Source: a bacterium (GTDB lineage Bacteria > Chloroflexota > Dehalococcoidia > Tepidiformales > Tepidiformaceae). From it: a stretch of 64,000 nt of DNA. A program made the position numbers and the translations under genes. The notes beneath the pieces are model-generated. The model saw only the letters and a list, made by a program, of their open reading frames with translations, did not search any database and was not told the origin of the DNA. The stretch covers positions 62,001 through 126,000 of the forward strand of contig QEVS01000006.1 of assembly GCA_003577245.1 (NCBI GenBank), written 5' to 3'. Positions 59,534 through 60,538 of this stretch are shown one piece after another (within the stretch, counting starts at the first letter, position 1; every line of letters starts with the position of its first letter).

Positions 59534-59611
59534 CCCGCGGGTTTTCCCGCGATTTCCCGGCGGTTTATGCCAACTGACCGGTAAATTTGTGAAGCAATTC
59601 GCAAATAACCC

Positions 59612-59641
59612 TTGACAGGCTACTTTCCGGGTTGATAGCGT
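59612..59641 (+). promoter_or_regulatory. Promoter of the c-di-AMP riboswitch transcript
   Basis: TTGACA and TAGCGT, 18 bases apart; transcription would start a few bases before the aptamer. Confidence 0.6.
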
Positions 59642-59645
59642 CAGG

Positions 59646-59829
59646 CTACGGACACGCTTCGGCGTTCCGAAACGCGCTCAGCTAAACAGGAGCAACTCTG
59701 CCGAGTGCGCCTCTGGCGCAGCGGGGGAACCAACACTGGGGTGAATTCGGCTGCGGCCAGCCGCAGATTCGATAGGGCGTCCTTCGGCCCGAACCCGTCA
59801 GCTAACCCCGCAGGCAGCAGGAAGGCCCG
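59646..59829 (+). promoter_or_regulatory. Cyclic di-AMP (ydaO/yuaA) riboswitch
   Basis: Conserved blocks of the family occur in order: GCGCAGCGGGGGAACCAA, GGGGTGAAT, AGGGCGTCCTTCGGCCCGAA and CCCGTCAGCTAACCCCGCAG. The GTGAAT and CGTCAGCTAACC blocks are near-invariant in ydaO RNAs. Downstream lie a small hairpin and seven Ts, then the ribosome site of a zinc-ribbon gene. Expected action: c-di-AMP binding favours termination, so the gene is off at high c-di-AMP. Known ydaO targets are wall enzymes and K+ or osmolyte transporters; here the target is different. Confidence 0.92.
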
Positions 59830-59862
59830 GCGAGTGGGTAGCTCGCTTCGAGGTCTTTTTTT
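59830..59862 (+). terminator. Expression-platform terminator of the c-di-AMP riboswitch
   Basis: GCGAG/CTCGC hairpin (or the overlapping CTCG-CTT-CGAG) followed within nine bases by seven Ts (59856-59862). Confidence 0.55.
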
Positions 59863-59910
59863 CTGTCCTCGAACTACCAATGTTTGATTGCTTTCAGGAG
59901 GAAACGGACG

Positions 59911-60129
59911 ATGCCGGCTTTACAGGAAGCCCCGCCCAAGTCTTGCCCCAAGTGCCGCGGCTCAATGATCGTTGAGCGCGACTGGCACGGCACCTACGGT
60001 AGCTGCATCATGTGCGGCTACGTGCACGAAGTGCTCACCAGCCCGCCCGTGGACCTTGCCGCCGAAGAGGCCGCTCTCCCTCAGCGCCAGCGCCGCCGCC
60101 AGCCCTCCCACGGCAAGCTCCGGCTCTGA
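59911..60129 (+). CDS. Small zinc-ribbon protein under c-di-AMP riboswitch control
   Basis: 72 residues. CPKCRGSMIVERDWHGTYGSC with a following CGYVHE makes a classic Cys4 zinc ribbon (CPKC, CIMC) at residues 12-38. The remainder is Ala/Gln/Arg-rich and basic (PQRQRRRQPSHGK). ATG with CAGGAGGAAACGG at ideal distance, 48 bases after the T-tract of the riboswitch. Function unknown; zinc ribbons of this kind bind nucleic acid or act as adaptors. Such a target is not among the common ydaO genes. Strong terminator follows. Confidence 0.8.
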   Translation: MPALQEAPPKSCPKCRGSMIVERDWHGTYGSCIMCGYVHEVLTSPPVDLAAEEAALPQRQRRRQPSHGKLRL

Positions 60130-60153: not shown

Positions 60154-60184
60154 GCGGCCCCCGGACCACACCGGGGGCCGCTTT
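60154..60184 (+). terminator. Terminator after the zinc-ribbon gene
   Basis: Eleven-pair stem GCGGCCCCCGG/CCGGGGGCCGC with loop ACCACA, followed by TTTC. Confidence 0.85.
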
Positions 60185-60250: not shown

Positions 60251-60538
60251 TTGCCATACATCCGCCTTTCCATAGCCCGCCCACGCCGGGGCGAAGAGAA
60301 GCGCCTGGAAGAACTCTTCCGCCAGCTCTCCGATATGGCCGCAAGCATGCCCGGTTGCCTTCAGAGCCTCGTGCTGAAGCCCCACGACGATAGCGGCGAG
60401 ATCGCAAGAATCTCCATCTACGAAGGCGAAGAAGCCGCCGAAGCCATAGCCAACAACCCGCGCTTCATGTCACTCCGCGCCGAGGTCCATCTCGCCAGCG
60501 AGCCGGGCCACGCTGAACGCGCCTTCTTCAGCATCTGA
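60251..60538 (+). CDS. ABM-like (antibiotic-biosynthesis-monooxygenase fold) protein
   Basis: 95 residues with a ferredoxin-like alpha/beta fold: PYIRLSIARPRRGEEKRLEEL at the start, MAASMPGCLQSLVLKPHDDS, EIARISIYEGEEAAEAIANNP. Such small proteins are dimeric and bind small ligands or act as cofactor-free monooxygenases; the active-site residues are not obvious. TTG start with GGGGGA just upstream; the frame is open further upstream but overlaps the terminator region. Confidence 0.65.
   Translation: MPYIRLSIARPRRGEEKRLEELFRQLSDMAASMPGCLQSLVLKPHDDSGEIARISIYEGEEAAEAIANNPRFMSLRAEVHLASEPGHAERAFFSI

Follow-up and report, generated by a model that had tools for sequence, protein, structure and literature searches.

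Riboswitches for c-di-AMP, a salt-stress messenger, are known mainly for the control of transporters, of osmolyte genes and of enzymes of the cell wall. In the kdpFABC leader of B. thuringiensis, a ydaO/yuaA riboswitch favours intrinsic termination once c-di-AMP is bound, and c-di-AMP drops when K+ is limiting (PMC6488665). Here we describe a locus in a 64,000-nucleotide stretch of a Tepidiformaceae contig (Chloroflexota, Dehalococcoidia; hereafter the window), where an aptamer of the same family, well over its cut-off and in a lineage that carries DAC enzymes, precedes a gene of a different kind. Unlike the kdpFABC leader, its target is a 72-aa zinc ribbon and not a K+/osmolyte transporter or a cell-wall hydrolase. 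The features of the locus are collected in Table 1.

Table 1. Features of the zinc-ribbon locus, in window coordinates, and loci of a second tiny zinc protein
Feature	Position	Strand	Evidence
Palindrome TTGTGA-N6-TCGCAA, CRP/FNR-like spacing	59587..59604	+	25 nt upstream of -35
Promoter TTGACA-18-TAGCGT of the leader	59612..59641	+	same place in 30/30 family loci
c-di-AMP riboswitch aptamer (ydaO/yuaA, RF00379), by homology	59689..59829	+	82.1 bits, covariation, class-wide recurrence
Intrinsic terminator of the expression platform	59820..59862	+	hairpin GGAAGGCCCGGCGAGU...GCUCGCUUCGAGGUCUU, then U7; leader fold
Ribosome-binding site AGGAGGAA	59896..59903	+	read directly; family alignment has an RBS-like stretch ahead of the conserved ATG
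72-aa zinc-ribbon protein, CPKC-X16-CIMCGYVHE, acidic linker, tail RQRRRQPSHGKLRL	59911..60129	+	ORF list, conservation
Post-stop hairpin (11 GC pairs), probable terminator of a one-gene transcript	60154..60181		terminator scan
Second tiny zinc protein	L252-L264 (family loci), L233, L240, L249, L250		

The aptamer and its linkage to the zinc-ribbon gene

The original prediction had read a ydaO motif at this place, followed by a 72-residue zinc ribbon with a basic tail, and had named an aptamer score below threshold as one result that would speak against it. The covariance search with RF00379 (cmscan) gave 82.1 bits, far over the gathering score (GA) of 38 bits, with E=1.5e-17 for the whole window and an alignment over the full model (1-134). 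The ribbon CPKC-X16-CIMC and the basic tail were likewise found as described. In the paired structure of 20 family aptamers, 97.3% of the cells were paired and 24 double-change cells were seen, and either value was reached in 0/500 shuffles. The invariant RF00379 core, e.g. GAACCCGUCAGCUAACC, was present in the window aptamer and near-invariant across the 20 relatives. By homology, the aptamer is almost certainly a c-di-AMP riboswitch, and it is an ordinary member of RF00379. It lies in the 5' leader, 81 nt upstream of the zinc-ribbon ATG, together with an expression platform. The sole other Rfam match in the window was a SAM riboswitch (RF00162, 10123-10232 on the minus strand, 81.8 bits).

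We checked the capacity of the host for c-di-AMP. The assembly to which the window belongs (2.16 Mb, 15 contigs, 72% complete) carried two RF00379 matches, and no DAC gene was found in it. The DAC domain (PF02457) was present in a same-genus genome and in most of the family. A ligand other than c-di-AMP, as the assembly without DAC might suggest, was therefore rejected, since genus and family possess the enzyme and the assembly is incomplete.

The riboswitch-gene linkage in related genomes, which the original prediction had proposed to survey, was strongly positive. An aptamer preceded the gene on its own strand in 28/30 family loci, and in 76/80 class-wide loci it did so at close distance, the latter being the best-scoring 80 of 126 with the family loci included, so that this rate holds for the closer relatives. 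The class-wide aptamers were searched with a covariance model built from the 20 family aptamers. Because the arrangement recurs in this way, the association of aptamer and gene is not due to chance. The unlinked loci among the 80 were L075 and L082, which belong to the genomes of L021 and L025, a second paralogue (L095) and L101. L021 and L025 kept gene and promoter with no detectable aptamer, and in three loci of one more distant family (L188-L190) the invariant tail was kept with no aptamer nearby. Among 294 Dehalococcoidia genomes, 109 had both the protein and RF00379, 1 had only the protein and 18 had only RF00379; a DAC domain accompanied the protein in 105/110, and the 5 genomes with the protein and without DAC were 72-88% complete. 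The Fisher p values of 4e-60 (protein/RF00379) and 6e-52 (protein/DAC) ignore shared ancestry and are indicative only. We consider it very probable that the riboswitch controls the zinc-ribbon gene.

The zinc-ribbon protein

The 72-aa ORF starts 7 nt after the AGGAGGAA motif, and its start codon is invariant in the family alignment. When 61 related genomes were searched, the identical 72 residues (100%) were found in 11 genomes of 9 genera, and the remaining family members with a match showed 81-99% identity. Over 30 loci, dN/dS had a median of 0.019 and dS a median of 0.85; because of this dS, the identity of the protein does not stem from recent common DNA ancestry. Class-wide relatives were mostly 55-70% identical, with the four ribbon cysteines kept and the C-terminal tail QRRRQPSHGK[LI] invariant. 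Across the 294 class genomes, a clean gap separated full-length relatives (E <1e-28, 110 genomes) from ribbon-only matches (E ~1e-13 and weaker), and 0 full-length relatives were found outside Dehalococcoidia in a 400-genome phylum sample. A phage origin was rejected, with 0 matches among 50,697 phage records.

No Pfam family matched above its curated cut-off (PF08271, 21.9 vs 29 bits; PF02150, 18.2 vs 25.2 bits), nor did any named NCBIfam family, FmdB, TFS and BsaP among them (best 15.4 vs 31.3 bits). Like the zinc ribbons of RPB9/RPC10, TFIIB and TFS (PF02150, PF08271, NCBIfam TFS), the protein has a CxxC...CxxC ribbon, with weak profile and fold similarity. Unlike them, it belongs to a bacterial family restricted to Dehalococcoidia in the samples searched, and the matches, all below the cut-offs, span the ribbon but leave out the QRRRQPSHGKLRL tail. 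It shares ribbon type and size class with generic tiny zinc ribbons of Chloroflexota (e.g. L191-L207), which differ in that the similarity is confined to the ribbon, the invariant tail is absent and those tested have no flanking aptamer. The AF2 model, built from 30 sequences (mean pLDDT 73.7, pTM 0.45), showed a ribbon of three strands, a single helix at 46-55 and an unstructured tail. Foldseek against PDB returned nothing below E 0.001; the top rows, all non-significant, were mostly zinc ribbons of RNA polymerase RPC10/RPB9, Elf1-type proteins and topoisomerase I, in agreement with a weak sequence match to RPC10. ZifS of Thermus was another weak fold match, and a literature search gave no ZifS paper.

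Our best guess is that the combination of zinc ribbon and invariant basic tail would fit a factor binding the transcription or translation machinery, and we tentatively regard an action on transcription, translation or nucleic acid as plausible. Alternatively, the protein might be an adaptor independent of nucleic acid, whose ribbon and tail bind and directly regulate a K+ channel, an osmolyte enzyme or a c-di-AMP receptor. The co-regulation of osmolyte and transport genes is consistent with such a role, as are the small size of the protein and a tail that forms an invariant linear motif. However, the gene appears to form a one-gene unit without an operon partner, and the structure resemblances, weak as they are, point to zinc ribbons of RNA polymerase and translation, and we consider such an adaptor rather unlikely.

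Promoter and leader

The promoter of the leader has its boxes at 59612-59617 (TTGACA) and 59636-59641 (TAGCGT), with a predicted transcription start at ~59648; the feature of the original prediction starts at 59646, no more than about 2 nt away. In the alignment, a promoter of the form TTGAC[A/G]-17/18-TAnnnT-like lay upstream of the aptamer in 30/30 family loci. A generic sigma-70 scan gave no promoter because the -10 box is TAGCGT, which was recognised through the alignment. The original prediction had also named a separate promoter of the zinc-ribbon gene as a result that would speak against it. No such promoter was seen between aptamer and gene, and the conserved one precedes the aptamer.

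Further upstream, the half-site TTGTGA was found in 28/30 family loci, 23-26 nt upstream of -35 (only the half-site was scored), and the exact palindrome TTGTGA-N6-TCGCAA had one copy in the genome, as in the window. L025, which has no detectable aptamer, still has the TTGTGA element. A role as a general promoter element was rejected, since the family's other riboswitch promoters mostly do not show the palindrome. Judged from its spacing, it may be a putative site for a CRP/FNR-type regulator, giving the gene a second input.

The leader terminator was seen by folding and was missed by a simple terminator scan. A same-genus relative (L064) has a near-identical leader hairpin (-19.2 kcal/mol). 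A hairpin with a U-tract directly follows the aptamer in the window and in about 14 family loci, and in other family members the hairpin is kept and the U-tract absent. A clear terminator is missing in most leaders outside the family and in several inside; outside, the leaders of most relatives are short, which suggests that translation is the step controlled there. Folding of the leaders did not establish an antiterminator; in partial folds of some genomes, not consistently, the 5' P1 strand ACCUGC was complementary to GCAGGU in the terminator loop.

From the leader hairpin with its U-tract, and from the termination behaviour of the B. thuringiensis riboswitch (PMC6488665), we infer an OFF switch, so that low c-di-AMP would likely turn the zinc-ribbon gene on. 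In an ON switch, or a purely translational one, c-di-AMP would instead raise expression or would work only at the ribosome-binding site. This agrees with the lack of a U-tract in about half of the family leaders and in most leaders outside, and with an aptamer end that, outside the family, often lies 30-60 nt before the start codon; the short terminator-less leaders of some relatives probably do use translational control. Nevertheless, hairpin and U7 directly follow the aptamer in the window and in close relatives, and the kdp leader, the case studied by experiment, is an OFF switch that works by termination (PMC6488665), which makes an ON or purely translational switch unlikely for this gene.

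End of the transcript

The zinc ribbon had been proposed as the only gene before a terminator, with read-through of the leader to other genes as a second option. The former was supported by the hairpin at 60154-60181 and by similar strong hairpins after the stop codon in 60/80 relatives vs 64/213 control windows, which at the same time disfavour the latter. A clustering of neighbouring genes for a conserved partner was swamped by shadow frames of GC-rich genes. It could be argued that the leader serves downstream genes and that the zinc ribbon is a bystander, as a same-strand ORF (60254-60538) begins about 125 nt past the stop codon; but the post-stop hairpin intervenes here and in most relatives, and a protein with the dN/dS given above behaves as a conserved partner of the aptamer, which renders this reading very improbable. 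A spurious ORF or a chance link to the aptamer, as might be feared for a small ORF in a GC-rich genome, is refuted by the comparative data, namely 100% identity at dS around 0.3-1.3, the invariant start codon and the linkage in 76/80 loci.

Other c-di-AMP riboswitch targets in the family and class

Among the genes that come first after other aptamers in the family and class are those for an OtsA-like GT20 enzyme, a SulP permease, an MFS protein, a GT2 protein and a radical SAM protein of the KamA family; since their NCBIfam scores fall short of the equivalog cut-offs, the substrate assignments are tentative. The KamA-family (lysine 2,3-aminomutase-like) genes of L215 and L248, which also score below equivalog cut-offs, possibly serve beta-amino-acid osmolytes. 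The second c-di-AMP riboswitch of the genome under study (L002, G000:C12:52661-52817) lies upstream of a family-2 glycosyltransferase. Conserved-looking proteins of about 160-390 residues are found behind family c-di-AMP riboswitches at L235, L238, L245, L239 and L244; of these, L238 and L239 were scanned, and neither reached a Pfam cut-off.

An aptamer also lies directly upstream of the gene for a second tiny zinc protein, which is unrelated to the first and 57-62 aa long (consensus MLR...WWRR...RRCPEC...DRYCPGCH..TPEWR[FY]G), in 13/13 Tepidiformaceae genomes with a full-length copy, by coordinates in the class sample. Further small proteins with paired CxxC motifs are encoded behind class aptamers at L034, L035, L209, L211, L216, L217, L221, L222 and L228. 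Five of these (L209, L216, L221, L222 and L228) are ~100-aa proteins with two CxxC motifs, EAM.LI.EED..RGI ... RLCN.CA, and are weakly TraR-like; this group sits behind c-di-AMP aptamers of other Dehalococcoidia families. A more speculative proposal, which we hold as a possibility, is that the c-di-AMP regulon of Dehalococcoidia drives several unrelated families of tiny zinc-binding proteins as dedicated outputs. Under osmotic or K+ stress these would reprogramme transcription or translation, and the protein described here, with its invariant tail, would be the core member.

Proposed mechanism and significance

The locus reads as a single-gene unit made up of a conserved promoter, the RF00379 aptamer, a leader hairpin with U7, the zinc-ribbon gene and a second hairpin. 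By analogy with the riboswitch class, at high c-di-AMP, when K+ is ample, the bound aptamer would favour the terminator and the gene would be off; when c-di-AMP is low, under K+ limitation or osmotic stress, RNA polymerase would read through and the protein would be made. Less firmly, the protein might then use its ribbon and its invariant basic tail to bind RNA polymerase, the ribosome or nucleic acid, and might in this way tune transcription or translation in osmotic adjustment, alongside the osmolyte and transporter genes of the regulon. Taken as a whole, a one-gene unit under a c-di-AMP riboswitch whose protein works on the transcription or translation machinery is, in our judgement, reasonably probable.

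A literature search found no paper that connects c-di-AMP riboswitches to zinc ribbons, Dehalococcoidia or Tepidiforma. Neither the target family nor its linkage throughout the class appears to have been described, although the surveys of Nelson 2013 and Block 2010 were outside the scope of the search and an earlier mention in their supplements is possible. The zinc-ribbon protein is a candidate new effector in c-di-AMP signalling. Since Tepidiformaceae share it in identical or near-identical form, one construct represents the group. Its constancy between genera and its invariant tail across families point to a putative interaction under strong selection, and a protein that recurs nearly unchanged through the class suggests an important, undescribed output of c-di-AMP signalling.
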